From Candidatus Nitrospira kreftii (GTDB taxonomy: Bacteria > Nitrospirota > Nitrospiria > Nitrospirales > Nitrospiraceae): a DNA stretch of 64,000 nucleotides. The notes beneath the pieces are model-generated. The model had not been told where the DNA came from. It saw only the letters and a list, made by a program, of their open reading frames with translations, and made no database searches. The position numbers and the translations under genes were made by a program. The DNA is taken from NCBI GenBank assembly GCA_014058405.1, contig CP047423.1:2629777-2693776 (forward strand), read 5' to 3'. Positions 2,756 to 24,894 of the stretch are shown here, piece after piece (within the stretch, counting starts at the first letter, position 1; every line of letters starts with the position of its first letter).

Positions 2756-2785
2756 TTGACAGGCTCTTGAACCTATTGATACTGT
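2756..2785 (+). promoter_or_regulatory. Original tRNA-Thr promoter, now orphaned
   Basis: A perfect -35 box TTGACA (2756-2761) is followed after 18 bp by TACTGT (2780-2785), a weak -10. The predicted start is about 27 bp before the tRNA 5' half at 2819. The position suggests it once drove the intact chromosomal tRNA-Thr. It now reads into a tRNA fragment and a terminator. Confidence 0.55.
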
Positions 2786-2818
2786 GCGACACGATGGGGG
2801 GCATCCTGTCATCACTGG

Positions 2819-2859
2819 GCTGGCGTAGCTCAATCGGCAGAGCAGCGGTTTTGTAAACC
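2819..2859 (+). pseudogene. Stranded 5' half of tRNA-Thr(UGU); attL of element A
   Basis: These 41 bases are identical to the first 41 of the complete tRNA at 18147-18187: acceptor strand GCTGGCG, D arm, and anticodon stem-loop through GTAAACC. Identity stops abruptly at 2860. The TpsiC arm and acceptor 3' strand are absent, so this cannot make a tRNA. The 41-bp direct repeat with 18147-18187 defines the ends of element A. Confidence 0.9.
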
Positions 2860-2875
2860 AACCAGACTATAACGG

Positions 2876-2914
2876 CCCCTTGTAATCTTCAATGGTTACA
2901 AGGGGTTTTCTTTT
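2876..2914 (+). terminator. Strong intrinsic terminator just after the tRNA half
   Basis: A perfect 10-bp stem CCCCTTGTAA (2876-2885) / TTACAAGGGG (2896-2905) with a 10-nt loop is followed by TTTTCTTTT. It lies 17 bp after the end of tRNA identity and would stop transcription from the orphan tRNA promoter before it enters element A. Confidence 0.9.
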
Positions 2915-2963
2915 ATCCCGTTGGTTGCCGGGGGGTGGAGAGAGGTGCTATAGAGTCGCTCCC

Positions 2964-2987
2964 GGGCACAGTTACGGGCACAGTTTA
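2964..2987 (+). repeat. Tandem 12-bp repeats, candidate arm sites for integrase A
   Basis: GGGCACAGTTAC (2964-2975) is followed directly by GGGCACAGTTTA (2976-2987). The second unit recurs exactly at 18075-18086, next to the other end of the element, followed by the related GGCACAAATC. Short direct repeats flanking both att cores are the usual form of tyrosine-integrase arm-binding sites. Confidence 0.6.
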
Positions 2988-2991
2988 GCAA

Positions 2992-4140
2992 ATGCTATTT
3001 AAGAAGCCTCTTAAGCAGATTACTTTTGAAGATGCTCAGGCATTCTGCGAGACCTGGCCAGAAGGGGTGCGGGTTGAGTATAAGCGCCTTGAAACTGACA
3101 AGATCCCAAAGGTTGTATCGTCGTTCGCGAACACCTTTGGGGGAGTCTGGATTATCGGAACAAAGACTGACAAAACCACCAACCGCGTCGTTCTACCGAT
3201 TGAAGGTATTCCGTTTGACCCTGGGATTGAAGAACGCATCACGCAATCGTGTTATGCCAACCTTTATCCACCCCTCCTACCGGATATTCAAGTTTTGCGT
3301 GTACCTGATACCGGCAATGCGGTGGTCGTCGTACAGGTCTCCGAGAGCGTAGAAGCCCCGCATGCCATTGAGAACAGCACTCGTGTCTATATTCGAACTA
3401 ACTCAACAACTGAACCGATTGAGTTGGCCGATGTCGATCGCATTGACTATCTTCTCCAGCGCAGGCGCAATGCCGAGGAGAAAAGATCTCAGAGGTTCTC
3501 TAGGCTGTGGGAATTATCATCTATCGGCCCGTGCGCATTGAAGATAGAAATAGGCCCTCGGTATCCGCATCTGCCTGTGTTAACGCATGAACAATTGAAA
3601 GCCCGCATTCGTTCCCACCGCGACCACGTGCTCATACGCGATTTCTCCATGCCTATCCGCGATGGCATCATGGCCCCTTCACCAAATGTTGATTACGCCA
3701 AGGATTTATACTTCGCAGCTAATGTCCATGGCTGCATAACATACGCAAAACCTATCGAGCGGAAGACAAGCTTTGACCAATCTTCCAAGGATTGCATTTA
3801 TCTAGGGGAGATTCTAGGCATTTTGTCGGAAGGGCTTGAGTTAGCCAAAGTCATTCTTAAAGGGATTTCATTGAACCTGCGTATCGATGTGAACCTTAAT
3901 GGAATACGAAAAGGCGTGATTGTTTACCGTAGCCTAGATGGTTTTCAGCCCACTCACCCTCCTACGATAGAAAGCTCTTCGGAAGCGCAAGAGGATTTCA
4001 TCAGCGAACACTTGGAAGACTTTGACCGTAAAACTACGCTGACAATCGATCTAGTTCGTCAGCTCATGTGGCCATTCAATTGGCACCACGTGGAACAGAT
4101 TGAATATGCGGTTAGACCATCAACCGCCGACCAACATTGA
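2992..4140 (+). CDS. AlbA_2 (Schlafen-type) domain protein
   Basis: The 382-aa protein opens with a recognisable AlbA_2/Schlafen DNA- or RNA-binding core (about residues 20-145): VRVEYKRLETD, then SSFANTFGGVWIIGTKTD, the conserved F-x-N-x-x-G-G-x-x-x-x-G signature, then an RVYIRTNSTT strand. The remaining 230 residues match nothing I can name. It is the first gene inside element A, transcribed away from attL, where satellites and prophages often carry accessory or defence cargo. A defence role is possible but is inference only. No obvious partner gene lies nearby: the next gene is 425 bp downstream. Confidence 0.75.
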   Translation: MLFKKPLKQITFEDAQAFCETWPEGVRVEYKRLETDKIPKVVSSFANTFGGVWIIGTKTDKTTNRVVLPIEGIPFDPGIEERITQSCYANLYPPLLPDIQVLRVPDTGNAVVVVQVSESVEAPHAIENSTRVYIRTNSTTEPIELADVDRIDYLLQRRRNAEEKRSQRFSRLWELSSIGPCALKIEIGPRYPHLPVLTHEQLKARIRSHRDHVLIRDFSMPIRDGIMAPSPNVDYAKDLYFAANVHGCITYAKPIERKTSFDQSSKDCIYLGEILGILSEGLELAKVILKGISLNLRIDVNLNGIRKGVIVYRSLDGFQPTHPPTIESSSEAQEDFISEHLEDFDRKTTLTIDLVRQLMWPFNWHHVEQIEYAVRPSTADQH

Positions 4141-4412
4141 TTCACGCTCGTTTTTCTCCAGACATTCTATTGAATAGCCTCTTCTGGAAGCGGCTTGAGC
4201 AGCTCAACGTGCAGACAGGTCAGTGGGTTCTAGTGCGCGAAAATTGGAACGCCATCCAACTAACTCTTGAAGAACACTAAGACGCTCAGACGTGTGGGAT
4301 GCTCCATTCCCGGTGCCAAGCCTGGAGAAAGTCCTTAAAGCATCGTCAGGCATATAACAGGTTGATCTAATACCGTCCTCTCGTGGGCTAAGTGACAACT
4401 GATCACATGAAA

Positions 4413-4438
4413 CCCCTGGAGTCGAAAGGCTTCAGGGG
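4413..4438 (+). terminator. Weak hairpin after the AlbA_2 gene
   Basis: CCCCTG...CAGGGG form a short stem-loop, but only scattered T residues follow, so termination is uncertain. The rest of 4141-4564 holds no gene I can support. Confidence 0.35.
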
Positions 4439-4564
4439 GGGGTTCCTGTCTCGTTCCAAAGAACACCAAAGGAGTAGTATAGGGGGATCAAGGCACAACG
4501 TCATAGTCGGAGCAAATCATCCTTTGCCCCCGGGATTGATGGGCACATGAAAGGCGGTGGGGTC

Positions 4565-4813
4565 ATGAATGCAGATCAGGAAAAGGAAAGCGATGAAATA
4601 GACGAAGCCACGCTCCTCGAAGTGGACGAGGACGAGGATGCACTCGAGCTCATGGATGGGCGACGCCTGAAGATTTCGCCTAGAGACATGCCCACTGCCC
4701 TACTCTGGCTACCAACCGCCACGCTCGAAATTAGGGAAACCGGCGATGGAATGTTTGATCTGCTCGTGAAACTGCAAGGTACCGAGCAGGTCATCCGTGC
4801 TAGGTGGGGGTGA
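4565..4813 (+). CDS. Small acidic protein of unknown function
   Basis: An 82-aa protein starting at ATG 4565, preceded by AAAGGCGGTGG. An in-frame ATG at 4547 is less well placed. The first 30 residues are very acidic (DQEKESDEIDEATLLEVDE), and the remainder reads as a small beta-rich domain (ATLEIRETGDGMFDLLVKL). Acidic small proteins in phage-like elements sometimes mimic DNA, but nothing here proves that. It lies between the AlbA_2 gene and a putative DNA-binding gene on the same strand. Confidence 0.55.
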   Translation: MNADQEKESDEIDEATLLEVDEDEDALELMDGRRLKISPRDMPTALLWLPTATLEIRETGDGMFDLLVKLQGTEQVIRARWG

Positions 4814-4938
4814 ACGGGCATCGCTAGGCTTTAGCGTTTCGCTCGTAGGACATGGCAGGCTAAGACCTCTCACATGATCCTCGGGCTGGCGCCGTATCAC
4901 GTTGACGTTAGTCACATGAATATGATAATGTTACCATC

Positions 4939-5736
4939 ATGACTAAGGCTTACCCTGAATATCGCTTCCCGCTTGATTCCGCGATTCCCTCCATGCCGCG
5001 TGGTGCCCTCGGTGCATTCATTCAACGCAAATTGCGCGAGTACAAGGAACCGACGAGAGAAGGAACACCAAAAGGTGAAGCGGTTGGGCTTTCGCGTCAG
5101 AAATTTCACGCGGCATTACTAACGGGGCTCACCTCTCTCGATCTCAAACGGATCAGCCGAGAGGTGCGAGTCTCCTACGCTCTCTTGCGCAAGTGGCGTA
5201 CAGAGGATGCGTTTTGCAAAGCAGAATACACAGCCGCCGAGGAGTTTGCTAAAGGCAACTTTGATGTAGCCGCAAACTACTCCATTCGCATCGTTGCGGG
5301 GATCGGAGATACATTCATCGGCGATCAACCGATGGCCGAAAAGATTCAGAAGGAACAGTTGTTCGGCTTCGATGATGGAGCCCATTACAGCGAACTCTTG
5401 CTGGATGTGATTGTAGACCACCACCAAGGAAACCAACTTCCCGATCTATACAAGGTCCTCTCGACACTAGAACCTGACCAGGCTCTCGATGCAACAACGC
5501 TCGTCATGGCTGGTGACTTTCTCGCCTTTGCCTATACCCTGGATCGGATCGGACGGATGAGGCTCAAGAAAGCTGGACGACTGGCACGTGAAGCCTTCGC
5601 ACGACGACAGAAATTTGCGCAACGAGTGCTCAATCTTTTGATCGGCCATGCGTTAGCGCGTGGCCCCATTCATGACACGACGCGAACCTTTGCAGTTCAA
5701 GCGATCAACGTCTTGCATCGTCTGCTGGCTGATTAG
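4939..5736 (+). CDS. Putative DNA-binding protein, unknown function
   Basis: A 265-aa protein. Residues about 65-90 (LKRISREVRVSYALLRKWRTE) fit a helix-turn-helix, and the rest is mainly alpha-helical with basic patches near the C-terminus (RMRLKKAGRLAREAFARRQKF). I recognise no family. It precedes the primase-helicase by about 130 bp on the same strand and could be a regulator or replication accessory of element A. Confidence 0.65.
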   Translation: MTKAYPEYRFPLDSAIPSMPRGALGAFIQRKLREYKEPTREGTPKGEAVGLSRQKFHAALLTGLTSLDLKRISREVRVSYALLRKWRTEDAFCKAEYTAAEEFAKGNFDVAANYSIRIVAGIGDTFIGDQPMAEKIQKEQLFGFDDGAHYSELLLDVIVDHHQGNQLPDLYKVLSTLEPDQALDATTLVMAGDFLAFAYTLDRIGRMRLKKAGRLAREAFARRQKFAQRVLNLLIGHALARGPIHDTTRTFAVQAINVLHRLLAD

Positions 5737-5815
5737 GTGATCTTTTTATTGATAACGAAGGTAACTCTCCAATAGCACTGTTACTAGCAACGGCACCACG
5801 AGGAAAGGCATAAGG

Positions 5816-5887
5816 ATGAATAGCACGGCGGCATCAACGGGAAGCGGGAATAGGGCCAAATCCCAAGATGAGGCTAACCGTGGCTAA
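5816..5887 (+). CDS. Possible 23-aa leader peptide before the primase-helicase
   Basis: ATG 5816 sits behind a GGAAAGGCATAAGG region and reads 23 codons to a stop at 5885-5887, overlapping the start of the primase-helicase (5868) by 20 bp. The big gene has no clear Shine-Dalgarno of its own, so this ORF may supply translational coupling. It could also be chance. Confidence 0.3.
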   Translation: MNSTAASTGSGNRAKSQDEANRG

Positions 5888-8123
5888 CCCGCTCCTACTT
5901 CTTGATCGCGTCTATGAGCTTCGTGTTCCGAAAGCAGGTCGGCAAGGAACCGTCAGCGGATACTTCGATGATTCCGGATTGCTGCATGAGGCGGCGAATG
6001 AATTAGACGGTAAGGTCCCTAGCGTTTACGTTACGATGAATTCGGTCAATCCTGCCCTACTCGCCCGCGCCAAGAATCGGCTTCGGTATCACGCGAAAAC
6101 CACTACCGGGGATGCCGATATTCTCAAGCGTGAATGGATCTTGATCGACTGCGATGCTGTTCGGCCTGCCGACATCTCCTCAACTGATGATGAGCATCAG
6201 GCCGCTCTCGATCGCACCCAGAGCATCATGACGTGGTTGTCATCGCAAGGATGGCCTGAACCGGTCCGAGCTGATAGCGGCAATGGTGCGCACCTGCTCT
6301 ACCGTGTCGATCTTCCTAATGATCAGGCAAGCCTTCACCAAGTCAAGGCCGTGCTTGAGGTGTTGGCATTTCGGTTCAATGACACAGTCGTCACGATCGA
6401 TACCAGTGTGTCCAATGCAGCGAGAATTACGAAGCTTTACGGAACCATGGCGTGTAAGGGGGATTCAACTGAAGACCGGCCTCATCGCCGCTCACAGATT
6501 CTGCACACCCCGGCAAACTTGATCCATGTACCAGTTGAGAAGTTAACCGAGCTTGCCAAGCTGCGCCCCGTTGATACTCGATCCCTCCCCCCGCCATTCA
6601 ATGGCGCTCGATTTGATGTCAGAGACTTTATCCAGCGGCATGCCATTTCCACCATCAGAGAAAAACCTTGGAATGGGGGAACGGTCCATGAGTTGGAGGC
6701 GTGTCCATTCAATCCGGAGCACGGGCCTGGCGAGTCGAGCATCATTCAATTTTCTTCTGGGACTTTGGGGTTCAAATGCTTTCACAATTCCTGCCAGCAG
6801 TATCACTGGAAAGATCTTCGAGACCGATTTGAACCGGACCGGCCCCGCTATGCCGGACCGGCTGCCCATGTCCGGCCTCATCATGGTGTGCCGCCATCCG
6901 ATGAGGACGCCCCTGTCCTCACTCAGCTCAGCACCATCCCCCCAGAACTTGTCCGGTTCTTGTGGTCTAAGCGCATCGCTAAGGGAAAATTGACCAACCT
7001 GATCGGTGATCCAGGCTTAGGCAAAACGATGGCCGCCCTCGATATCGCGGCCCGGATTTCAACGGGTGCTGCATTGCCGGACGGATTGCCAGTTGAGGCA
7101 GGCAATGTCATCATTTTGTCTGCCGAAGACGGAGCGGCCGATACGATTCGTCCTCGGATTGATCGATTTCATGGAGACCCGAGCCGTATCTATCTGTTGC
7201 AGGCCGTCAAACAGCAGGGCAAGGACCGGCCCTTCAATCTCGCCGATGATCTTCATCATCTCGAGCAGGCAGTGCGGCAGACGCAAGCAGCGCTCGTCCT
7301 GATCGATCCCTTGTCCGCCTACCTTGGAAAGACCGATTCCTTCACGGATGCAGAAGTGCGCGGCGTTCTCGGCCCGGTTTCAGCCTTAGCCGAACGGTGC
7401 GATGTGGCCATTCTCGGCATCATGCACCTGAACAAGAACTCCAGCTCACGGGCACTTTATCGCGCCTCAGGGTCCATTGCGTTCGTCGCGGCAGCTCGTA
7501 TTGTCTTGCTTGTTGCCCGAGACCCAGAAGATGAAAATCGGCGGTTCCTCACTCCCTTAAAAACGAACATTTGCAGCCCACCGCCAACACTTGCCTTCTC
7601 AATCGATGGTTCCGGCCTTCTCACTTGGGAAGCAACCCCCGTGGGGCATGTGGACCCGGAAACACTCCTTAACCAGGTCGACAAGCAAGAACGCCGGACT
7701 AAGGTTGACGCGATGGCATGGCTTCGTGGCTTCCTCGATGAAGGGGAGCAGCCTGCCAGTGAAGTCTACGCGGAAGCGAAGAAGGGGGGCATCTCCGAGC
7801 GGACACTGGAACGGGCCAAGCTCAACTTGATGGTGAAGCAGCGGCGGGTAGGATTCGGCGCAGATGGACGGTGGTTATGGAGTCTCCCCCATACCACGCC
7901 AGTTGGCGACCAATGGAGTCAAACACCCTCTAACCCATTGATAATTCCAAAGGACGCCCATACATCGCCAACCGCTCAATTGGCGACCAATGACCCTCAT
8001 CATACATCGCCAAATACTGCATTGGCGACCAATGGGCGGTCTTTGGATATATCAACTACTTACGCCCATACATCGCCCATAGATCGCCAACTGGATATAG
8101 AGGAGGTAGACCTTGCTCGTTGA
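5868..8123 (+). CDS. Primase-helicase replication protein of element A
   Basis: The 751-aa protein is a fusion. Residues about 1-240 resemble a prim-pol/archaeo-eukaryotic-type primase (WILIDCDAVRP, ADSGNGAHLLYRVD, ARITKLYGTMACKGD). A Cys/His zinc-binding segment follows (CPFNPEHG ... FKCFHNSCQ, about 275-310). Then comes a RepA/AAA_25-type RecA-fold ATPase (about 360-590) with Walker A GDPGLGKT, Walker B AALVLIDPL and the sensor-like MHLNK. The tail (about 600-690) has a winged-helix look. The last 70 residues are low-complexity and overlap the repeat array. Such fusions replicate plasmids and phage satellites autonomously. Start ATG 5868 was chosen as the first in frame. Confidence 0.88.
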   Translation: MRLTVANPLLLLDRVYELRVPKAGRQGTVSGYFDDSGLLHEAANELDGKVPSVYVTMNSVNPALLARAKNRLRYHAKTTTGDADILKREWILIDCDAVRPADISSTDDEHQAALDRTQSIMTWLSSQGWPEPVRADSGNGAHLLYRVDLPNDQASLHQVKAVLEVLAFRFNDTVVTIDTSVSNAARITKLYGTMACKGDSTEDRPHRRSQILHTPANLIHVPVEKLTELAKLRPVDTRSLPPPFNGARFDVRDFIQRHAISTIREKPWNGGTVHELEACPFNPEHGPGESSIIQFSSGTLGFKCFHNSCQQYHWKDLRDRFEPDRPRYAGPAAHVRPHHGVPPSDEDAPVLTQLSTIPPELVRFLWSKRIAKGKLTNLIGDPGLGKTMAALDIAARISTGAALPDGLPVEAGNVIILSAEDGAADTIRPRIDRFHGDPSRIYLLQAVKQQGKDRPFNLADDLHHLEQAVRQTQAALVLIDPLSAYLGKTDSFTDAEVRGVLGPVSALAERCDVAILGIMHLNKNSSSRALYRASGSIAFVAAARIVLLVARDPEDENRRFLTPLKTNICSPPPTLAFSIDGSGLLTWEATPVGHVDPETLLNQVDKQERRTKVDAMAWLRGFLDEGEQPASEVYAEAKKGGISERTLERAKLNLMVKQRRVGFGADGRWLWSLPHTTPVGDQWSQTPSNPLIIPKDAHTSPTAQLATNDPHHTSPNTALATNGRSLDISTTYAHTSPIDRQLDIEEVDLAR
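7903..8094 (+). repeat. Iteron-like array inside the primase-helicase 3' end
   Basis: TTGGCGACCAATG occurs at 7903-7915, 7980-7992 and 8022-8034. CATACATCGCC occurs at 7959, 8001 and 8067, and ATCGCCAACTGG at 8083. TCGCCAA and TTGGCGA are reverse complements, so adjacent copies form inverted repeats. The array forces a low-complexity tail on the protein (repeated HTSP and LATND/LATNG). Candidate replication origin or autoregulatory site. Confidence 0.7.
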
Positions 8124-8440
8124 AGCGCTGAAACCGCTCCTAATCCATTTACCGACTGGTGACGTTCACCTGGAACCTGGGGTCCCGGTTGAACTGCCCG
8201 ATGAACACGGGCGACGGTTACTCGCCAAGGTCCCGGATAAGGTCCGCATCGTCACTACCCAGAGCGTGGTTGTCGAACCCGCCATCAGGCCGGACGGCTC
8301 CCCACTGACTCCCGTCTATTGGGAACGAGGCGACGGGTCTATCTCAGGGCCTGCCTCTGTTGAGTTCTTCTATCGGCTAGGCGACACAGACGGGCTCATT
8401 GTGGAACACCGAGGGGAATTAGTTTGGATCAATGCATCTA

Positions 8441-9609
8441 GTGTAGTGGGTCATAAGTAGCTTGACTTATTGTCTCGCGTGAGTATCCTCTGTTCCCCAA
8501 GGAGGATCGGCCCATGCGCATCGCCCCCGCCGTTCATCTGAGTGACCCTGAACGCCAGCAACTCGAGCAGTGGGCGCATGGGCGACGAACGCCTGCGCGA
8601 CTGGTGCTCCGCGCCAAGATTCTGTTGTTGGCGGCCGCGGGCCACGACAATCACCAGATTGCCGCTGCCGTAGCCACAAGCCGGCAAACCGTGGGGCTCT
8701 GGCGGCAGCGCTTCGTGACCCAGCGCGTGCTCGGTCTTGCCCAGGATGCCCCTCGCGGAGGGCGGCCCCCCAAGGCACGCCGGACTCTGACCGCGCGCAT
8801 CCTGAAGACGACGACGCACACGAAACCACCCGCCGCTACCCACTGGTCCACCCGCACCTTGGCGCGACACCTGCGGACGAATCCCACGTTCGTGCAACGG
8901 GTCTGGACTGCGCATGGGCTGCACCCCCATCGAGTCCGCGCCTTCAAGCTCAGTCAGGATCCGCACTTCCAGGAGAAATTGGAGGATGTGGTGGGGCTCT
9001 ATCTCCATCCGCCCGCGCATGCGGTGGTTCTGGCTGTCGATGAGAAAAGCCAAATCCAAGCGCTCGATCGCACACAGCCTGGCCTCCCGCTGAAGAAAGG
9101 CCGGTGCGGGACGATGACCCATGACTACAAGCGCCACGGCACGACCACGCTCTTTGCCGCCCTCAACGTCGCGGAGGGCTCCTTGATCTCCACCTGCTTG
9201 CCCCGCCATCGGCACCAGGAATGGCTGCGGTTCCTACGGCTGATTGATCGGCAGATTCCTCAGGACAAGGCCCTGCATCTGATCGCCGACAACTATGCCA
9301 CTCACAAACACCCCACGGTCCAACGGTGGTTGACACGGCACCCCCGCATCCACATGCACTTCACCCCGACGAGTAGCTCGTGGCTCAATCTCGTGGAGCG
9401 TGTCTTTGGCGACCTGACGGCCAAACAGCTGCGGCGCGGTGTGTTCCGGAGCGTCCCCGAGCTGATTGCGGCCATTGACGCGTACATGACCCAGCGCAAT
9501 GCCCAGCCTAAACCGTTTGTGTGGACCAAATCCGCCCAGGAGATCCTGACAAAAGTGAATCGAGCCAAGATCGCCCTGGATAAGACAAGAACAGCATGAA
9601 TCACTACAC
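8441..9609 (+). mobile_element. IS630-family insertion sequence, copy 1
   Basis: 1169 bp flanked by a TA duplication (8439-8440, 9610-9611), the hallmark of IS630/Tc1 elements. Imperfect terminal repeats begin GTGTAGTG at both ends. The copy at 44654-45822 has the same length and, wherever I compared it, the same sequence. Both sit in a CTAG target. Confidence 0.93.
8514..9599 (+). CDS. IS630-family DDE transposase, copy 1
   Basis: The 361-aa protein has an N-terminal helix-turn-helix (HDNHQIAAAVATSRQTVGLWRQ) and a DDE catalytic domain: first Asp in VVLAVDEKSQIQ, second in HLIADNYATH, Glu in NLVERVFGDLT. These motifs are typical of IS630 transposases. ATG 8514 has an AGGAGGATC ribosome site. 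It is complete and probably active, given the apparently identical second copy. Confidence 0.95.
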   Translation: MRIAPAVHLSDPERQQLEQWAHGRRTPARLVLRAKILLLAAAGHDNHQIAAAVATSRQTVGLWRQRFVTQRVLGLAQDAPRGGRPPKARRTLTARILKTTTHTKPPAATHWSTRTLARHLRTNPTFVQRVWTAHGLHPHRVRAFKLSQDPHFQEKLEDVVGLYLHPPAHAVVLAVDEKSQIQALDRTQPGLPLKKGRCGTMTHDYKRHGTTTLFAALNVAEGSLISTCLPRHRHQEWLRFLRLIDRQIPQDKALHLIADNYATHKHPTVQRWLTRHPRIHMHFTPTSSSWLNLVERVFGDLTAKQLRRGVFRSVPELIAAIDAYMTQRNAQPKPFVWTKSAQEILTKVNRAKIALDKTRTA

Positions 9610-9688
9610 TAGGTTGCGGACAAAGCGGCAATGGGAAAAGCAAAAGCCAGTCATTGAGGTTGATCGGCAGTTGTTGAAGGGGTAATCG

Positions 9689-9865
9689 ATGAACCTGTGG
9701 CGACAGACTAAGCGCTATCAGTGCCCAGCCTGCGGGGCTGTCTATCTGCACGATCAGGCTTACGTCCATGCCGCTTTTAAATGTGTCTATCGGGCAAGGA
9801 GCGCGGGAAAAGGGACATATCCAGGCACCGGCCGTAATTCCCTACAGGCAGGCAAGTCAATATGA
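9689..9865 (+). CDS. Small zinc-ribbon-like protein
   Basis: A 58-aa ORF begins 3 bp after the restored stop of the IS-split gene and ends with an ATGA overlap into the next gene, so it belongs to the same operon. It has YQCPACGAVYL with a CxxC knuckle plus a later Cys (FKCVY), which suggests metal binding. Function unknown. Confidence 0.6.
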   Translation: MNLWRQTKRYQCPACGAVYLHDQAYVHAAFKCVYRARSAGKGTYPGTGRNSLQAGKSI

Positions 9866-10272
9866 GCAGCAGCCCGCATAATCAGTCCTCCCCCTCCCCT
9901 GTCCCCGGCTCGCGTCGTGGACAGCCCGGGCGCCCCAGGAAAGGCGATGCAGGCATTTACGGGCACAGTCCGGGCACACCGACGGCGGAACAGCGCACTA
10001 GGAGCGGGGATTTTACCGGCGCACCGGTTGTGATAACCAGCGTTTCCCCGATCGCTCCCCGCCTGCTCGATCTCGCGGCTACTGCCGCCTATCTTGGCGT
10101 AAGTACTTGGAAAATCCGTGAGCTGGATGCCGAGGGTATCCTTCCCCGGGTCCGTATTCCACTGCCCAATGCCGGGGAAGTACGGAAGCTCCTGTTCGAT
10201 CGGTGCGACCTGGATCTGTTGATTCAACAATGGAAGGACCTGGCAAAAACTGATGGGGGTAGGGGGGCTTGA
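9862..10272 (+). CDS. Helix-turn-helix (AlpA/excisionase-like) protein
   Basis: A 136-aa protein. The first 60 residues are disordered and Ser/Pro/Arg-rich (including an RRGQPGRPRKGD AT-hook-like stretch). Residues about 68-125 fit a MerR-like excisionase HTH_17 domain (LLDLAATAAYLGVSTWKIRELDAEGILPRVRIP). It overlaps the zinc-ribbon gene by ATGA. It could be the recombination directionality factor for integrase A or a regulator of the packaging genes that follow. Confidence 0.7.
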   Translation: MSSSPHNQSSPSPVPGSRRGQPGRPRKGDAGIYGHSPGTPTAEQRTRSGDFTGAPVVITSVSPIAPRLLDLAATAAYLGVSTWKIRELDAEGILPRVRIPLPNAGEVRKLLFDRCDLDLLIQQWKDLAKTDGGRGA

Positions 10273-10365
10273 GGGGGTGTTCCTGCGCATGCAGGCCAAC
10301 GTGTGCCTGTAGTTTTCATACGCCCAAACACGATCAAGGGCCATGTTTTTTCATGAGAGGTCGGC

Positions 10366-10824
10366 ATGAGCATTAAGTTGTGCGGGAAGCCAACAAAAAG
10401 CGGTTCGAGTTGCGGGTATCGCCTGGGCGACGGTCGGGAATGCCCCCACCATAGCGGTGATGGGTCGGCAGCCAAGCGCTTTCAGATGAAAGGGGCGTTA
10501 GCGAGCCAGGAAGCCCAAACCATTCCAGACCTGACGGTGGATTTAACCAGTGAAGAAGGTATCGCCCTCACCCTACAGGGGTTGAGCGAGAAAGCCGCCA
10601 GAATCAAGAACGTCAATTTAAGGCGTATCGCGGAAATCCGCCAGTGTTGCAACACGGCGGTCAGCCTCCGGCAGGCAGCGGCCACACGGGAACTCAATCA
10701 AAGCCTCCTTCGACTTGAACACGGGGCCCGGGCCGTCGCCGTACTCCAACAGATGAAAGCGGCGGACCGGATCTTGAAACCATTACCAGGAACACCCAGA
10801 AAGCTAGAGGCCAATGGCGACTGA
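10366..10824 (+). CDS. Zinc-finger/helical protein, possible small terminase
   Basis: The 152-aa protein begins with a Cys/His cluster (CGKPTKSGSSC ... ECPHH) seen in some phage-encoded DNA-binding proteins, followed by long amphipathic helices. It overlaps the terminase large subunit gene by 11 bp. Position and size fit a small terminase subunit, but no diagnostic motif proves it. ATG 10366 follows GAGAGGTCGGC. Confidence 0.6.
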   Translation: MSIKLCGKPTKSGSSCGYRLGDGRECPHHSGDGSAAKRFQMKGALASQEAQTIPDLTVDLTSEEGIALTLQGLSEKAARIKNVNLRRIAEIRQCCNTAVSLRQAAATRELNQSLLRLEHGARAVAVLQQMKAADRILKPLPGTPRKLEANGD

Positions 10825-12457
10825 AGACAAAATCGATAAAGTACTCCTGGAGCATCTAGGATCCGGCGGCGTGAGCCTGTGCCCTGTTCTGCTCGATCTG
10901 CCCACGGTGCCAGACTGGGCCGACGGCACCGATCAACAGGGCCGAAGCGTGCTCCTGATTGGCAAGTCATTCCTGGGTGAGAGCGAAGAAGCCCAGGAGA
11001 CCGTCAAGCTCGTCCTGCAGGATCTCGGCTCCGGCGCGTGCCCGGATCTCGCTCATGCCGTAGCCTATGCCCCGCTCGCCTCGCAAGCAATCGCGGCCAT
11101 TGTCGAGGGGCCCGAAGAAGAATTTTTGCTCCATTCAGAGCGTGGCACGGGGAAAACCGTCATCAAGGCAGGCATCTCGCCCATTCTCGCGGAACTGCAT
11201 CTACGGGCTGGCTATCTCGTGCCCTTCAAAGTGATCTGGCTCCATGACTCACTGTTATCGGCGAGCATCAAAACGGCCCGCACCCTAGAGAATGCCATGT
11301 GGGGCGGCCTGTGGACGATTCACGATGATTCGCGCCAAGCCCGGTTCTCCATTGCCGGCCGTGCGCTCGTCCATGTGGATTTTGTGGGATGCAAGGACGA
11401 AAGCTCCGCCGAACGCTTGCGAGCTTCCGCGCATCTCGTGAAGGCAGAGGAATTGATTGCCTCACAGACCGACGGGACCGGCATTTCAGAGCAACAGTAC
11501 GAACTCGCCTTAAGCTCCATGCGTCGCCAGGATGTGTCGACCCCTCGGCGCCGGTCGGTCTGTGCGACGAATCCCGGGGCTCCTGAGTCCTGGCCCGCGC
11601 AACGCTGGGGCATCGTGGGGACGGCTCGGCCGAAGACCCGCGCCATTCGCATCCCCCGTGAAGATCGCATGACGGCGGAGGAGCAGGCCGAACAGGATAC
11701 CCAATTTGCGAACAGTCCGACCTTGCACCGGAGACTGGTCAAAGGGGAATGGGTACAAGCTGACCTTGGAGAGAATGTAGCCGAAGGCTTCGATGAGCGT
11801 TTCCATGTCGCGACCTCTCCGCTGACGCCTCGCTCTCAATTCCTCCTAGGTATCGGCTGGGATGGAGGCCATACGCCCTCAGCGGTGATTGGTCAGTACG
11901 TCGGCGGGCAAGTCCGTGTGTTCGCCTCGCTGAACGAAATGAAAGCGGGCGTCCGCGAGCTGATCAAAGCGCAAGTCTTGCCCTGGCTCCAGACGCATGC
12001 GCCTTGGTCTTTGGAGAGCTTTGGAGCGTCTCTCGTTCACATCATCGATCCGAACATGGCGACGCCGGGGCAGGTGACTATTCTCGAATCGGCGGCCCGC
12101 ACGATCGAAGAGGAGCTTGGGGGCCGCATCATCAAAGGCCCGGTCCGCTGGGCTCCCCGCCGGGAAGCGGTGCTGCAAGCGCTCTCAGCTCGCCATGGGA
12201 AAGGCAAAGCGCAGTTTCTTATCAATCCCGGTCCCGATACGGCGCTCCTGGTCCAGGCCTTCAATGGGCGCTGGTTTTATAAGAAGTTGGATAACGGGCA
12301 AGTTGACCGAACGGGCCCGAAGAAGCCGAACAGCCCGCACGCAGACATCGGCGATGCGGCAGCCTATCTGCTCGATTGGTTGTACGGGGGCGAACTCATG
12401 ACCGCGGCGCAACGCGAAGTCACCGTCGAAACACAATTTAACCCACTGCGTCACTAA
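10814..12457 (+). CDS. Phage terminase large subunit
   Basis: The 547-aa protein carries the terminase ATPase-nuclease signature. Walker A is HSERGTGKT (about residue 110). An acidic Walker B-like segment is HLVKAEELI. The coupling motif is CATNPGAPESWPAQRW. The RNase-H-like nuclease has three acidic sites: GIGWDGGHTPS, HIIDPNMATPG and HADIGDAAAYLLDW. This enzyme pumps and cuts DNA during packaging. All motifs are intact, so selection has kept it despite the absence of portal and capsid genes. It overlaps the upstream gene by 11 bp. Confidence 0.85.
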   Translation: MATEDKIDKVLLEHLGSGGVSLCPVLLDLPTVPDWADGTDQQGRSVLLIGKSFLGESEEAQETVKLVLQDLGSGACPDLAHAVAYAPLASQAIAAIVEGPEEEFLLHSERGTGKTVIKAGISPILAELHLRAGYLVPFKVIWLHDSLLSASIKTARTLENAMWGGLWTIHDDSRQARFSIAGRALVHVDFVGCKDESSAERLRASAHLVKAEELIASQTDGTGISEQQYELALSSMRRQDVSTPRRRSVCATNPGAPESWPAQRWGIVGTARPKTRAIRIPREDRMTAEEQAEQDTQFANSPTLHRRLVKGEWVQADLGENVAEGFDERFHVATSPLTPRSQFLLGIGWDGGHTPSAVIGQYVGGQVRVFASLNEMKAGVRELIKAQVLPWLQTHAPWSLESFGASLVHIIDPNMATPGQVTILESAARTIEEELGGRIIKGPVRWAPRREAVLQALSARHGKGKAQFLINPGPDTALLVQAFNGRWFYKKLDNGQVDRTGPKKPNSPHADIGDAAAYLLDWLYGGELMTAAQREVTVETQFNPLRH

Positions 12458-12468
12458 GGAGGCACACG

Positions 12469-12969
12469 ATGGAACAGCACGCGATTCAACACGGCGGGGA
12501 AATCTCATTGGAGGACGCGCAGACACAAGCGCGAGACATCATGGGCAACCCAGACAACCCACTCCATGAAAAATGGAAGAAAGGCGAAGCCGAAGCGCTC
12601 GATCAGGTGGATCGAATCTACCGCCGGGCCGTCGGGAATAAACCGGTAGCAGTCGGCGGCGGCTCGCTCGCGTCTTCAGCCCCGACGCTCAACCTTGCCG
12701 AGTTCTCCGTTGATCCCAACGCGCCCCCGGTCGATCCAGCAGAGGAGTTCATGAGGCAGCAGGACGAGAAGGAGCTCACTCAGCTCAAGGAGGAGTGGGC
12801 GCGAGACGGCATCGGGTTTGAGTCCGCCACCCAAGAATTGGTACCGCTGGTGCAAGCCATCCATCGGACTGATCCAGAACTCCTCCACCTGGCAGAGGCC
12901 CGCTTAGGGCCTGGACTGGCCTTGCGTTTACTTCGAATCATTTCAGGCAGCATGCACGCGAACGTCTAA
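12469..12969 (+). CDS. Hypothetical protein downstream of terminase
   Basis: A 166-aa protein, 11 bp after the terminase with an AAGGAGG ribosome site. It is acidic and mostly helical with a Gly/Ser/Pro-rich linker (about 65-95). I recognise no domain. Position would suit a packaging accessory or portal-adjacent factor, but this is position only. Confidence 0.65.
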   Translation: MEQHAIQHGGEISLEDAQTQARDIMGNPDNPLHEKWKKGEAEALDQVDRIYRRAVGNKPVAVGGGSLASSAPTLNLAEFSVDPNAPPVDPAEEFMRQQDEKELTQLKEEWARDGIGFESATQELVPLVQAIHRTDPELLHLAEARLGPGLALRLLRIISGSMHANV

Positions 12970-12992
12970 CCACTCACACAAGGAGAGCCATC

Positions 12993-13538
12993 ATGAACTT
13001 CACAGCATTAGAAGAGCGGATCAAAACCTCACGCGCCGCCGAGTCAGCAGGACAGGACCAGGCCGTCGACGCGATGCGGCAGGAGCTGCAAGCGTGCTAC
13101 GCCGAAGCGAAGAGCAAGTTGCCGTCGCTTGACAAGGCCGTGAATGAAGCGCGGGCCTTTCTGAACAAGATGCAAGCACTGGCGGCGACGTGTCGGCAGC
13201 CGCTGCCCGCGTTAGTTGTGCAGCACGTGAACGAAATGACACTGTTGTGTGACAGCGCACCGCGTCAGGTACGAGAAGGCTTAGCCGCCTTCGAGAATCT
13301 TTCCTTTTCTCAAGTGGTCTGGAAAGACGGCTCGTCGCTGGATGTGAATCAACGGACCGCCCTCCTCGCCACAATCCGGGGTGGTCTGGCTGGCTGGCAT
13401 GCGGGCCGACGGTTGCAGGCTGTTCAGGCCGAAATCACCACCTACTTAGAAACGGCTCAATGGCCGACTGGGGGCACGGCATCAGCAACGATTCCGTTAG
13501 CGCCCGAACCAGCCCCAGAGGTTCGCGTGCGCACATGA
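12993..13538 (+). CDS. Hypothetical helical protein of the packaging operon
   Basis: A 181-aa protein with an AAGGAGAG ribosome site, 23 bp after the previous stop. It is Ala/Gln/Arg-rich and predicted almost entirely alpha-helical and coiled-coil-prone (MRQELQACYAEAKSKL), with a Pro-rich C-terminus. No family recognised. It is probably co-transcribed with the terminase. Confidence 0.65.
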   Translation: MNFTALEERIKTSRAAESAGQDQAVDAMRQELQACYAEAKSKLPSLDKAVNEARAFLNKMQALAATCRQPLPALVVQHVNEMTLLCDSAPRQVREGLAAFENLSFSQVVWKDGSSLDVNQRTALLATIRGGLAGWHAGRRLQAVQAEITTYLETAQWPTGGTASATIPLAPEPAPEVRVRT

Positions 13539-13653
13539 TCACACCGTATTCTAGTCACCAAGGAGGATCTATGCGGATCGTGGACTTGCGCTGGCGCAGC
13601 TGTTCGCTACTTTGATCCGACAGCGCCCTACGGGAACCTGACGTGAGGAAGAA

Positions 13654-13803
13654 ATGCTTGATCTGTCTGTGTATGAACGCTACCTCGCGAACGATGATGA
13701 CCTGTCTCCAGAGCTCACACAGGAACTCCTGGACGCCTCCCGAGCGCTCCAGGGGGAGAATGTGCGACTCAAGGCTCAGCTGGTCGGGCGGGGTAATCAA
13801 TAG
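13654..13803 (+). CDS. 49-aa ORF at the end of the terminase operon
   Basis: A short ORF with a GAGGAAGAA ribosome site. It is acidic then helical (LDLSVYERYLANDDDLSPE, then a leucine-rich helix). Unknown; plausible as the last gene of the rightward operon. The 110 bp before it contain an AGGAGGATCT site leading only to a 14-codon ORF at 13571. Confidence 0.45.
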   Translation: MLDLSVYERYLANDDDLSPELTQELLDASRALQGENVRLKAQLVGRGNQ

Positions 13804-13904
13804 CGTTGAGGAAGGCGCTACAGTGTGGCGAACATCAAGGGGTGATGTCTCGGCTACCACTTCAGTACGGGATTAACTACCCGACTGAAATACCGTCGCT
13901 AGGT

Positions 13905-14198
13905 CTATCTTTTGGGAGGCTGCTGAGATTTTTTCGTACGAGCTTTGGGTGGATTGAGATTGGCTGCATCAAAGGCAATGGAGCTTTCTTCTGAAAATGG
14001 CGATATACCAATTTCCTTTATAGCTGCAACGGAAGCCGGTTGCACTTCACCCGATGGGTCTTTCGCATTGATTCCCGCAAATTGAAATGATGCATACACC
14101 CCCCATATCCCTTCGTGGATGTTATGCTTCTTGAGCATGTACTCAACGAGTTCTTTGTAAGGGAGCGGATATTTCTGCTTCCCCTCAGACTGCTTCAT
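13905..14198 (-). CDS. Hypothetical third gene of the HicAB-like operon
   Basis: A 97-aa protein whose start overlaps the HicB-like stop (ATGA-type), implying coupled translation. It has a helical N-terminus, a central GIWGVYASFQFAGI strand pair and a basic, Pro-rich tail. No family recognised. A third gene so tightly coupled to a toxin-antitoxin pair may be an accessory of that module. Confidence 0.6.
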   Translation of the reverse strand: MKQSEGKQKYPLPYKELVEYMLKKHNIHEGIWGVYASFQFAGINAKDPSGEVQPASVAAIKEIGISPFSEESSIAFDAANLNPPKARTKKSQQPPKR

Positions 14199-14779
14199 CT
14201 GCCTCTCCCCATTGTTTGACGCCTATCTAAGTTTTCTCTCAAATCCACAAACCGGCCAGTTGTTGAGGCGCGACCAACAAATTTTCCCGTTCGTATAGTC
14301 CGGGAAGCACTGGATTCAGTAACTCGATCAAAGCGGGTGGTCCCTTCTATAAGATCGTCAATACTCGCAATGGCCCTCTGAAGCGATTGATTTATTGATT
14401 CGGGGACCGTTGTGGCGACCTTTGCATCCGCTTTTTGCTGCGTGAGCCTATAGACGACGTACTGGTTTAGGCTTACCCCTTCTTTCTCAGCCTGCCGCGC
14501 TAATTGCCGATGCAAACTTTTCGGAAGTCGAAGGAGAAGTTTACCGCTGTACTCTTGATCGTTCCACGCATCGGGAATATCTCGGCCAGATTCGATTTCC
14601 GCCTCGATCCATGCAATGGCGGTCACCTCCAGATTTTGTAATGCTTCCTCTGGAGTTTCGCCTTCAGCGAGGCACCCTTCGAACTCTGAGATGTATGCTG
14701 AGTATCCCCCTTCTGCCTCAGGGATCAACACACGCTCGTATGGGCGCTGCATCATTTCAGCAGGTGTGATGTTCGTCAT
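14195..14779 (-). CDS. hicB: HicB-like antitoxin with ribbon-helix-helix
   Basis: A 194-aa protein with the partial RNase-H-fold HicB domain (about 12-75: YERVLIPEAEGGYSAYISEF, GCLAEGETPEEALQNL), then a ribbon-helix-helix (about 83-112: LLLRLPKSLHRQLARQAE) and a long extra C-terminus of about 80 residues. HicB antitoxins bind HicA and repress their own operon. The gene order here (toxin-like gene first, antitoxin second) is usual for hicAB. The extended C-terminus is unusual. Confidence 0.82.
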   Translation of the reverse strand: MTNITPAEMMQRPYERVLIPEAEGGYSAYISEFEGCLAEGETPEEALQNLEVTAIAWIEAEIESGRDIPDAWNDQEYSGKLLLRLPKSLHRQLARQAEKEGVSLNQYVVYRLTQQKADAKVATTVPESINQSLQRAIASIDDLIEGTTRFDRVTESSASRTIRTGKFVGRASTTGRFVDLRENLDRRQTMGRGR

Positions 14780-14793
14780 TGGCCGTCCTCCAT

Positions 14794-15081
14794 CTAGCGC
14801 GTATCTTCTTCTATCTGCAGTTCCCAGGCGTCGATATCGCCCTCAATTATATTAAGCGAGGCCCTTGCCGTTCCCTTCTTCATGCATCCGGGGTGAAAAT
14901 GAATCGGCAGAGCGCGTCTTCCTTTAAGCGGACTCACGTACATCGGCGGCGAGCTGCCTGGTCGCTTTGTTCTGCCCACTGACTCCGCTAAGGAGACCAT
15001 CTCACTGAACTTAATATTCCCTAGGCGGTTATGCATCTCTGCAATCCATCCGCGTAGTTCTTTTATCGATCGTGGAGTCAT
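14794..15081 (-). CDS. Divergent HicA-like protein (putative toxin)
   Basis: A 95-aa protein, 14 bp upstream of the HicB-like gene on the same strand. The segment GRRALPIHFHPGCMKKGTA resembles the HicA core (…VPVH…KELKKGTLRSI…), with the small dsRBD-like size. The catalytic His of the usual GSH motif is not at its normal place (here GSSPPMY), so activity or exact family is uncertain. The assignment rests on this pattern plus the adjacent HicB. Confidence 0.5.
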   Translation of the reverse strand: MTPRSIKELRGWIAEMHNRLGNIKFSEMVSLAESVGRTKRPGSSPPMYVSPLKGRRALPIHFHPGCMKKGTARASLNIIEGDIDAWELQIEEDTR

Positions 15082-15119
15082 GATACTGCCTATAGTATCA
15101 CCGAATCAAGATGATTCGG
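15082..15119. promoter_or_regulatory. Two palindromes at the start of the hicAB-like operon
   Basis: GATACT-N6-AGTATC (15082-15099) abuts the start codon of the HicA-like gene. CCGAATCA-N3-TGATTCGG (15101-15119) is a perfect 8-bp-arm inverted repeat just upstream. Their position fits autorepression by the ribbon-helix-helix domain of the HicB-like protein. Confidence 0.6.
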
Positions 15120-15193
15120 AATATGGAGTGATGTATCCAGCCAAGACTTATTATTCAAGGTGAGCAACGACTACTTCCCCTTCCGCAGCAACC

Positions 15194-15400
15194 CTAATCT
15201 CGGTCAGGATTCGTTTGACGGCGCTTTAATGTCCAGACCAACGTGCCCACCCAGCCGATCACGGTCCACCCTAACAAGAGATTCACGATCAAAATCGGGA
15301 TGCAGCTGGGATGCCCTCGCCAGAGGGCGATAAACGCGGGAAGGAGATAGATGCAAGTCCCGCCCACGACATAGAGGCTACTGAGGCTATCATCGTCCAT
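15194..15400 (-). CDS. Superinfection-immunity-type small membrane protein
   Basis: A 68-aa protein with two transmembrane helices: LYVVGGTCIYLLPAFIALW and, after a short loop, a second with the NLLLGWTVIGW signature. That Asn-Leu-Leu-Leu-Gly-Trp-Thr pattern is typical of the Imm_superinfect family named after phage T4 Imm. Members sit in the inner membrane and are proposed to block entry of related phage DNA. Its presence in a phage-like element fits host protection, though many bacteria carry chromosomal homologues of unknown role. Confidence 0.7.
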   Translation of the reverse strand: MDDDSLSSLYVVGGTCIYLLPAFIALWRGHPSCIPILIVNLLLGWTVIGWVGTLVWTLKRRQTNPDRD

Positions 15401-15440
15401 GGGTCACCCCCTTCATTCGGGGTTATATGGGCCGTCGCTT

Positions 15441-15629
15441 CTATTTCCCCTTCGGTAGCAGCCCTTTCTTTTCGAGTTCTTCAATACGCTCCTCAGCTAG
15501 AGCCAGGAGAAACGCTTTCACGGTCCGCCGTTCTGCCAAAGCAGCTTGCTTCAATCGATATACCAAGTCCTTCGGAACACCTCGAATGTTGATCGTGCCT
15601 TGGTGACTGACGGCCTCTTTCTTGGGCAT
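15441..15629 (-). CDS. Ribbon-helix-helix regulator, leftward
   Basis: A 62-aa protein with the RHH pattern (TINIRGVPKDLVYRLKQAAL, then a helix with RTVKAFLLALAEERI), like FitA/Arc-type regulators. It is divergent from another RHH gene at 15731, with a palindromic operator between them. No toxin gene is adjacent, so a regulatory role in element A is more likely than antitoxin. Confidence 0.7.
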   Translation of the reverse strand: MPKKEAVSHQGTINIRGVPKDLVYRLKQAALAERRTVKAFLLALAEERIEELEKKGLLPKGK

Positions 15630-15673
15630 GGGGCCGGATACTAGCAGCCTCCACTGGCCGCCTCAAGCACCAG

Positions 15674-15714
15674 TTGACACAACGATGTATCATATGATAC
15701 ATGAATGTATCATA
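15674..15714 (+). promoter_or_regulatory. Promoter with embedded operator between two RHH genes
   Basis: A perfect -35 TTGACA lies at 15674-15679. A perfect 16-bp palindrome TGTATCATATGATACA (15686-15701) fills the spacer/-10 region, and a third half-site TGTATCATA follows at 15706-15714. The layout suits repression of the rightward RHH gene by one of the two RHH proteins. Confidence 0.65.
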
Positions 15715-15730
15715 GTAAGGAGGTGACGTT

Positions 15731-15871
15731 ATGAAGCTGGCTCGCATGAATATTTCAATTCCAATACAGCTCAAAGCCAAGCTCGACGCCGAACGTAAGC
15801 GCGGCACGAGTGCGGCGGGGCTCATTCGGCATTTACTCGAAGAGTATTTCAAGAGCAAGAAGGCCGCATGA
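15731..15871 (+). CDS. Ribbon-helix-helix regulator, rightward (46 aa)
   Basis: A short ORF with an ideal AAGGAGGTGA ribosome site. The sequence MNISIPIQLKAKLDAERK then TSAAGLIRHLLEEYF is a minimal beta-alpha-alpha RHH domain. It lies directly downstream of the palindromic operator and is followed 19 bp later by a gene with its own AGGAGGTG-like site, so it heads the rightward operon toward the integrase. Confidence 0.75.
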   Translation: MKLARMNISIPIQLKAKLDAERKRGTSAAGLIRHLLEEYFKSKKAA

Positions 15872-15890
15872 CTCACAACGGGAGGTGACC

Positions 15891-16253
15891 ATGTCAGCTC
15901 AGAAGACGGCGGACGGCTATTGTCCAAACCCGCGTAGACCCCTGAAACATCGCGCCGACTGCGCAGACTTCTACCGTGAACCAGAAGACAATGCTTGCGT
16001 TTCCGTTCGGGGGCCGCGTGCGGTGCTGCAGGCCATCGAGGAAGCTTCTGAGCGAGCTGGCCGCACCTTCAACGCTCACATGTTGTATGTGATCGAAGCA
16101 TGCCGGGGAAGGCTTCCGCTGCTCGCTGATGAAGAAAGAACCGAGGAGGAATGGCGCATGCTCCTCCAGCAACTAGAACTCCGCTTCGATGAGGGGGAGG
16201 AGTGGATAGGGCTCGCGCTCGGTTCCCCACGAACAGCGCCCCGCGCATCGTAG
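15891..16253 (+). CDS. Hypothetical protein, element A
   Basis: A 120-aa protein; ATG 15891 has GGGAGGTGACC. The N-terminus has Cys residues (GYCPNPRRPLKHRADCADFY) that could bind metal; the rest is helical and acidic. No family recognised. Part of the rightward operon between the RHH gene and the integrase. Confidence 0.55.
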   Translation: MSAQKTADGYCPNPRRPLKHRADCADFYREPEDNACVSVRGPRAVLQAIEEASERAGRTFNAHMLYVIEACRGRLPLLADEERTEEEWRMLLQQLELRFDEGEEWIGLALGSPRTAPRAS

Positions 16254-16303
16254 CGTGTTTCCGATTGTGCCAAGGTCCGTTCACCCATAACCAGGAGGTT
16301 CCC

Positions 16304-16639
16304 ATGCAGAACAGTGTTGCAGTACTCGACGACAACCACGTGCAAGGTTCCGCCGACGCCCCCCAGGTCTGGTATGCGCGGACGCCATCAGAAGAGGCGG
16401 TCTTTCACGGGGAAGATGAGCTAGGGCGCACAGGCTGGTTTCTTCGCCTCGAAGTCACCGGGTTGTTTCCGCGTCGGTGTGGCCCCTTTGCGAGTCGGGA
16501 GGAGGCCGTCGAGACGTTGGATCGGTTCTTAAGCGACCTCGTGCCAGGGGCGCTCTGTGAGCTGGGGAATGAGCTGGACGCGGGCCAGTGTGTGGTCGAA
16601 GGAGTCCAACCCATCACCGCAACGGCGAACGAAGGGTAA
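16304..16639 (+). CDS. Hypothetical protein, element A
   Basis: A 111-aa protein; ATG 16304 follows CAGGAGGTTCCC. It reads as a compact alpha/beta domain (TGWFLRLEVTGLFPRRCGPF, then a helix SREEAVETLDRFL), similar in shape to small phage proteins that present host-like folds. No family recognised. Confidence 0.6.
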   Translation: MQNSVAVLDDNHVQGSADAPQVWYARTPSEEAVFHGEDELGRTGWFLRLEVTGLFPRRCGPFASREEAVETLDRFLSDLVPGALCELGNELDAGQCVVEGVQPITATANEG

Positions 16640-16644
16640 GTATC

Positions 16645-16992
16645 ATGACCGTCCGCGACCTCATCCAGGCCTATCGCGACGCCGACACACCACGGCGGAA
16701 CGAGGATGAGCGGCACGCGGGCTGGTGGATCGAGCGCATTGGCGGGTTTCCGGTCGGGGAGTTGTCGCCGGAGTTGATTAAGCGGCAGCTCCTCGCCTCG
16801 GCCAAGTGCGGGCGTAGTGTCTGGACCACGATCCAGAGCGTCCTGAATCATCGCAGTCTCAAACCTACATCGATCTATGCCCGCTTGAATACCAAGGCGG
16901 TTGATCGGGCCTTACAAACCCAAGCGGATCGATTCTGCAGCATCGTGAATCCCCCCGCCGTGATACCCGAGACGCTGGCGATCGGGGGTTAG
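16645..16992 (+). CDS. Miniature integrase-like protein with the Tyr box only
   Basis: A 115-aa ORF starting 5 bp after the previous stop. The first half resembles the start of a tyrosine-recombinase core-binding domain (VRDLIQAYRDAD ... WWIERIGGFPVGELSPELI). The second half matches the extreme end of the catalytic domain (LNHRSLKPTSIYARLNTKAV) with the Tyr nucleophile. The intervening Arg and HxxR motifs are missing. It is either an internally deleted integrase or a retained small protein that competes with integrase. Confidence 0.6.
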   Translation: MTVRDLIQAYRDADTPRRNEDERHAGWWIERIGGFPVGELSPELIKRQLLASAKCGRSVWTTIQSVLNHRSLKPTSIYARLNTKAVDRALQTQADRFCSIVNPPAVIPETLAIGG

Positions 16993-17039
16993 GAGTCCGT
17001 TTCGGTTGTGTCCACACCTCAATGAAAGGAGCACACGTT

Positions 17040-18134: not shown

Positions 18135-18136
18135 TT
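18108..18136 (+). promoter_or_regulatory. Replacement promoter for the chimeric tRNA-Thr
   Basis: TTGACA (18108-18113), a 17-bp spacer and TTAATT (18131-18136) lie across the integrase stop codon, just upstream of the tRNA. The -35 box is perfect and the -10 weak. Element A would thus bring its own promoter along with the tRNA 5' half. Confidence 0.5.
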
Positions 18137-18146
18137 TCATTCGCAT

Positions 18147-18222
18147 GCTGGCGTAGCTCAATCGGCAGAGCAGCGGTTTTGTAAACCGCAGGTTGGAGGT
18201 TCGATTCCTCTCGCCAGCTCCA
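18147..18222 (+). tRNA. tRNA-Thr, anticodon UGU, intact
   Basis: The complete 76-nt cloverleaf has a 7-bp acceptor GCTGGCG/CGCCAGC, D arm GCTC/GAGC, anticodon stem GCGGT/ACCGC with loop TTTGTAA (anticodon TGT, reads ACA), TpsiC arm GGAGG-TTCGATT-CCTCT and an encoded CCA. Bases 18147-18187 repeat at 2819. Bases 18180-18222 and a further 24 bp repeat at 24641. It is therefore both attR of A and attL of B. Confidence 0.97.
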
Positions 18223-19414: not shown

Positions 19415-19604
19415 CGGTGCTCTCCCTCTTGTGTTTCTCAATGAACTTATCCATGTCCACAATGTCGACCATCACACGCCGTCCCTGTCGGACTTGCGGG
19501 AGATGCCCTTCCCAAATCAGATGCCGAATCCCCCATGGACTTCGACCGAGATACTTCCCAGCCTCCTTCACACTGTACAACCGTTTGCTAATTGGCTCAC
19601 TCAT
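19368..19604 (-). CDS. AlpA/MerR-like excisionase candidate
   Basis: A 78-aa protein from ATG 19604. Residues 8-50 (LYSVKEAGKYLGRSPWGIRH then GHLPQVRQGRRVMVDIVDMD) form the winged HTH_17/AlpA fold used by recombination directionality factors. It overlaps the integrase B start by 47 bp, so the two are co-translated. It is probably the Xis of element B. Confidence 0.78.
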   Translation of the reverse strand: MSEPISKRLYSVKEAGKYLGRSPWGIRHLIWEGHLPQVRQGRRVMVDIVDMDKFIEKHKRESTDGYDISQEEAGPDNG

Positions 19605-24640: not shown

Positions 24641-24685
24641 TTTGTAAACCGCAGGTTGGAGGTTCGATTCCTCTCGCCAGCTCCA
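24641..24685 (+). pseudogene. Stranded 3' half of tRNA-Thr; attR of element B
   Basis: TTTGTAAACC through CCA is identical to 18178-18222, but the upstream 5' half is replaced by unrelated sequence. It is the original chromosomal end of the tRNA gene on the reading given here. Confidence 0.9.
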
Positions 24686-24894
24686 CAACTTCTGCTGACA
24701 TTTCAACTCCGGGTGTTTTCCAATATCACGTTCCCTTCGGATCAATATCCGTGCATCTGCCAAGCTGTCCGTTTGCCTGTGATGAATAACTAGATACTGG
24801 GGCGAAGTCTGAGAATGTTGGAGTATTTGTCTGAGCCTTTGTTGTTTGGGGATGTGCGCTCGTCTACCATGACATGCCGTAGGAGGATGGATTG

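Follow-up and report, generated by a model that had tools for sequence, protein, structure and literature searches.

In phage lambda, int, attP and sib/tI follow one another in that order, with the terminator just past attP, and integration parts the terminator from int. This terminator is an RNase III-controlled retroregulator located far from any tRNA. Islands in tRNA or tmRNA genes that displace the 5′ fragment of the gene are a known minority, 159 of the 3919 in Islander (PMC4383910). In ICEKp1, ICEclc and ICEEc1, the transcription of int is state-dependent, and excision rewires the promoter and the terminator that flank this gene. These elements replace the 3′ side of the tRNA, transcription from the host tRNA promoter enters the end of the element, and int is located downstream of that promoter and of attenuating stem-loops in the UTR (PMC13023037).

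The window analyzed here is a stretch of 64,000 nucleotides from the complete 4.13-Mb genome of Candidatus Nitrospira kreftii. It includes an integrative element, element 1 (Table 1), which shares with lambda a terminator just past attP that is parted from int by integration and differs from it in the proximity of a tRNA gene. Element 1 resembles the Islander 5′-fragment islands in its tyrosine integrase, its split within the anticodon arm, and its ends, consisting of an intact tRNA gene and a 5′ fragment; however, the Islander article, in our reading, describes neither promoter replacement nor an end terminator (PMC4383910), and in element 1 the terminator belongs to the attP arm and is conserved there. 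Like the three ICEs, element 1 has a host tRNA promoter directed into its end, followed by a stem-loop, but this promoter was left behind an orphan tRNA half and int is at the opposite end (PMC13023037). Within the limited library of literature searched, we found no description of promoter replacement combined with a conserved attP-arm terminator, and nothing on such an arrangement in Nitrospira. We propose, with a probability of about 0.78, that the region 2756–2914 is the attL of element 1, that its terminator serves as an attP-arm stop for transcription crossing the attachment site, and that the RNA of about 120 nt ending there is a by-product.

The left junction of element 1 and the rebuilt tRNA-Thr gene

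The int1 gene abuts the intact tRNA-Thr gene, and in the close relative G020 the equivalent host 5′ flank runs directly into an intact tRNA gene, an unoccupied site that by its sequence represents the empty site for the element 1 insertion. Therefore, the interval 2860–18187 is an integrative element that replaced the 5′ half of a tRNA gene. As in other islands with a displaced 5′ fragment, the integrase gene is inside the interval, and the intact tRNA gene is accompanied by an upstream fragment on the same strand. The region 2756–2914 is the left junction (attL), and element 1 has replaced the 5′ half of the tRNA-Thr(UGU) gene together with its promoter, through a crossover somewhere within the shared anticodon-arm core. 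A close second copy of the tRNA-Thr(UGU) gene was not found in the genome. Direct repeats GGGCACAG were found on both arms of the element (2964–2983 and 18075–18093), as expected for integrase arm sites, and the element is presumably capable of excision. The nearest relatives found by integrase match were Nitrospira MAGs, and a scan of viral contigs for integrase relatives returned three distant integrases only.

Table 1. Location of the features of elements 1 and 2 in the window.
Feature	Position	Strand	Basis or comment
Native tRNA-Thr(UGU) promoter (very probable), orphaned, TTGACA-N16-GATACT	2756..2783	+	Genus conservation and promoter scan
Orphaned tRNA-Thr(UGU) 5′ half, forming the host side of attL	2819..2859	+	41/41 identity to 18147–18187
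Integrative element 1, ~15.3 kb	2860..18187	+	Direct repeat and integrase; layout shared with G133, G140, G157, and G454 (two contigs)
Predicted intrinsic terminator, first feature inside the element 1 left end	2876..2914	+	Fold; present in all seven non-decayed left ends of the clade
Left arm-type sites GGGCACAGTTACGGGCACAG, putative integrase arm sites	2964..2983	+	Repeated on the right arm; both arms in relatives
int1, tyrosine integrase (PF00589, E 6.7e-16)	17022..18134	+	Codirectional with the rebuilt tRNA and 12 bp upstream of it
Right arm-type sites GGGCACAGTTTAGGCACAA, within the int1 3′ end	18075..18093	+	Repeat comparison
Putative replacement promoter TTGACA-N16-GTTAAT, overlaps the int1 end	18108..18135	+	45-bp upstream conservation in relics
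Intact tRNA-Thr(TGT)	18147..18222	+	Element 1 supplied the 5′ half and, most likely, element 2 the 3′ half
int2, tyrosine integrase of element 2, 44% to int1	18158..19462	−	Convergent with the tRNA; C-terminal codons inside the tRNA gene
tRNA-Thr 3′ half, displaced and marking the far end of element 2	24641..24686	+	Repeat comparison

An earlier note, made from the letters of the window, had read the left junction as a promoter, the 5′ half of a tRNA, and a strong terminator with a perfect 10-bp stem, and the three components were located in that order. The promoter hexamers (2756–2761 and 2778–2783) are separated by 16 bp, and this is very probably the true host promoter of tRNA-Thr(UGU), because every one of the 24 loci of the genus compared in their native context has TTGACA-16-nTACT at the equivalent position. 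The 41 tRNA bases match the intact gene throughout, but they reach slightly further than the anticodon stem, where the note had ended them, taking in the anticodon loop and, on the 3′ strand of that stem, three bases. The terminator stem was confirmed: nucleotides 2876–2885 pair perfectly with 2896–2905, the helix can be extended to 12–14 pairs, and TTTTCTTTT follows. The hairpin has a folding energy of −22.1 kcal/mol (z = −7.0) that none of 200 shuffles equaled, and when the 120 nt that follow the orphan half were shuffled, 0/500 versions yielded a terminator of equal quality. With a G+C-rich hairpin that outperforms chance and a U-tract behind it, this sequence has the characteristics of an intrinsic (Rho-independent) terminator and is predicted to halt transcription. 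From a predicted start near 2790 the RNA would be ~120–125 nt long, with a fold-energy z of −3.7 that is mostly the contribution of the terminator; a transcript of this kind, holding the tRNA-Thr 5′ half, is likely made from the orphan promoter. An Rfam scan of 2756–2914 identified no known RNA family, the sole Rfam match being the tRNA at 18147.

The cargo of element 1 includes a Schlafen/AlbA_2 protein (2992–4140), which is the first ORF past the terminator, and a HicB-like antitoxin (14195–14779).

The terminator at the ends of related elements

A DNA search with nucleotides 2846–2995 identified matching left ends that adjoin orphan 5′ halves of other tRNAs. The terminator was present in all seven non-decayed left ends of this integrase clade, inserted at Thr, Arg-CCT, Arg-TCT, and Met targets and 9–17 nt past the tRNA half, compared to 0/8 left ends of other 5′-replacing elements at tRNA-Thr scored by the same fixed criterion; since the compared sequences are related, this contrast is descriptive and no probability is attached to it. 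The terminator was thus found conserved at the attL of relatives and linked to the element end, a point that the earlier note had suggested examining. No such terminator was present within 120 nt in seven left ends of 5′-replacing elements with an integrase of another clade. The element 1 layout, with an integrase of its clade, was recognized at both ends in G133 (Arg-CCT target, integrase 68% identical to int1), G140 (Met target, 56%, with one in-frame stop in the integrase gene), and G157 (Arg-TCT target, 50%, 27 kb), and spread over two contigs in G454 (Thr target, 55%). Read from these sequences, the attP left arm is composed of the core, 9–17 nt, a hairpin plus U-tract, a G-rich spacer, and GGGCACA arm sites, and the terminator is conserved whether the target is a Thr, Arg, or Met tRNA. 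Two terminator-bearing left ends of the clade also stand in tandem at a distance of ~250 bp, ahead of a decayed integrase gene and a tRNA-Met gene (L109/L154 in G091 and L155 in G090), the inner left end having no tRNA half.

A covariance model built on the left end (R2) extended the comparison. Hits below about 25 bits were not counted, most of them being ordinary terminators. The matches included distant Nitrospirota left ends that adjoin an antisense 3′ half of a tRNA. These relatives are 3′-replacing elements and have the module of terminator, spacer, and arm sites with no tRNA promoter in front. In one of them, G371, a single contig holds both ends, with a 56-nt repeat, an integrase 47% identical to int1, and arm sites of the sequence GGTTACA on each arm. 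Four of the six 3′-type terminators were matched by at most 1/200 shuffles and the remaining two by 4–5/200. The order common to both types, as read in the excised circle, is int, attP, terminator, and arm sites.

The comparison of 5′- and 3′-replacing relatives is a clean natural control for the purpose of element-end terminators. It bears directly on the possibility that the terminator persists as a dedicated insulator of the element against the strong tRNA promoter orphaned by integration on the 5′ side. The terminator is located exactly between the orphan promoter and the first element gene at all seven 5′-replacing left ends of the clade, and in ICEKp1 the stem-loops in the int 5′-UTR attenuate the adjacent host tRNA promoter (PMC13023037). 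However, the other-clade 5′-replacing left ends mentioned above have no terminator although some stand behind the identical native tRNA-Thr promoter, and the same module is found beside antisense 3′ halves, which indicates that the terminator is an attP-arm feature of the integrase clade that did not evolve specifically against a tRNA promoter. Insulation of the element, one of the two functions that the earlier note had considered, was therefore sustained as termination at the attP arm and lost its specific connection to the tRNA promoter, a connection that we regard as rather unlikely.

Proposed transcription across the attachment site

Termination at the attP arm can be envisioned as follows. 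Integration splits the tRNA-Thr(UGU) gene in the anticodon arm, and the upstream half is replaced by the copy that the element carries. The host keeps the promoter and the 41-nt half at 2756–2859, while the tRNA gene is rebuilt 15 kb downstream, directly behind int1, where its expression would rely on the promoter that arrived within the int1 3′ end. Once the element is excised as a circle, transcription from int1 and from the tRNA promoter of the element would cross attP and end at the terminator. In the integrated state found here, the terminator would stop transcription started at the abandoned tRNA promoter short of the arm sites and the left-end genes, and in integrated 3′-replacing relatives it would do the same with transcription from the host flank. 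In general, the terminator probably serves to halt transcripts that run through attP from the integrase side, and to shield the left end, rather than to produce a small RNA, the ~120-nt transcript with the tRNA half being a by-product. Shielding of the left-end gene could equally be the sole function for which the terminator was selected. A further elaboration is a retroregulation switch, in which the int1 mRNA of the circle would be stable by ending at the attP-arm terminator, and in the integrated state it would be fused to the tRNA and cleaved by RNase P at the tRNA 5′ end, losing its 3′ protection and lowering the levels of integrase. In this scheme the abandoned tRNA promoter would keep firing into the terminator. 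We consider the switch as a whole unlikely.

The inverted repeat could also be a DNA site for binding of the integrase or an excisionase rather than an RNA terminator. The stem and loop are unusually alike in the window, G454, and G140 in spite of integrases only 55–57% identical to int1. Nonetheless, the stems differ in sequence in G157, G312, and G371 with stem and T-tract kept, and the T-tract is found on the same side of the stem every time, so this alternative is improbable. The differing stems remain paired, as exemplified by GCTAAA..TTTAGC in G312 and CCCTTTAGAAA..TTTCTAAGGGG in G157. The structural argument rests on these three stems because pair-by-pair covariation of the terminator among eight left ends was not significant, owing to the small number of sequences and to a shift of one base in G157.

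Decayed relics of the element provide information on which components are dispensable. In G006 and G011 the tRNA half has several changes and the terminator is broken; in G024 the native promoter is mutated, the half is deleted, and the terminator is broken. The proposal of a functional small RNA, such as a tRNA-half regulator or decoy, which the earlier note had also raised, is highly improbable: promoter, half, and terminator are intact in the window and the RNA would fold well, but these losses in relics make an RNA selected by the host independently of attL unlikely, the need of attL for excision already accounts for why live elements conserve the half, and the half varies with each target tRNA. 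The 45 bp directly upstream of the tRNA gene were 89% kept in G006 and G011, versus 76–77% and 63–64%, respectively, for parts of the integrase body; in G028 the difference was small (84% versus 81–83%). This pattern fits a replacement promoter that is needed and an orphan RNA that is not.

The integrase family exchanges the promoter of a tRNA gene for which no close second copy was found in the genome, and it carries a built-in attP-arm terminator. The tRNA-Thr(UGU) promoter was exchanged repeatedly in the genus, which makes expression of this tRNA dependent on sequences brought by mobile elements. A second type of replacement promoter (acacTTGACcccaaggccgagagtctg...) was found at 18 tRNA-Thr(UGU) loci (L028, L031, L043, L045, L062, and L099 among them); at about half of them an integrase was not detected immediately upstream, and these loci resemble promoter scars left by lost elements.

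Element 2 and other observations

Element 2 is a 3′-replacing element located on the opposite side of tRNA-Thr from element 1. Despite the kinship of int2 to int1, no terminator is adjacent to its far end (24641..24686), and the attP-arm terminator is therefore not universal; a joint interpretation of the two elements was considered and rejected. To judge from the repeats, the intact tRNA-Thr gene is most likely a chimera to which each element contributed a half, the two host halves having been left behind at the outer ends. The antisense strand of the tRNA-Thr gene (18158–18222, minus strand) encodes the last ~21 codons of int2. Since the C-terminus of int2 crosses its own attachment site, it would change upon excision or upon movement of element 1. 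Integrases flanking one tRNA from both sides were also found in G055, G073, G087, and G247. In at least five genomes (18147–18222 in the window and loci L010, L051, L088, and L206), a tRNA gene stands between a 5′-replacing and a 3′-replacing element with their integrases facing each other. Element 2 also encodes a G2P-type replication protein (23479–24474) and a PIN-domain protein (22578–22988).

DDE transposase genes with ORFs of equal size were found inside element 1 (8514–9599) and far downstream (44727–45812), and they are probably two copies of one insertion sequence. The order and sizes of the ORFs in 46442–49561 are repeated in 51792–54668, which suggests a second large duplicated block.
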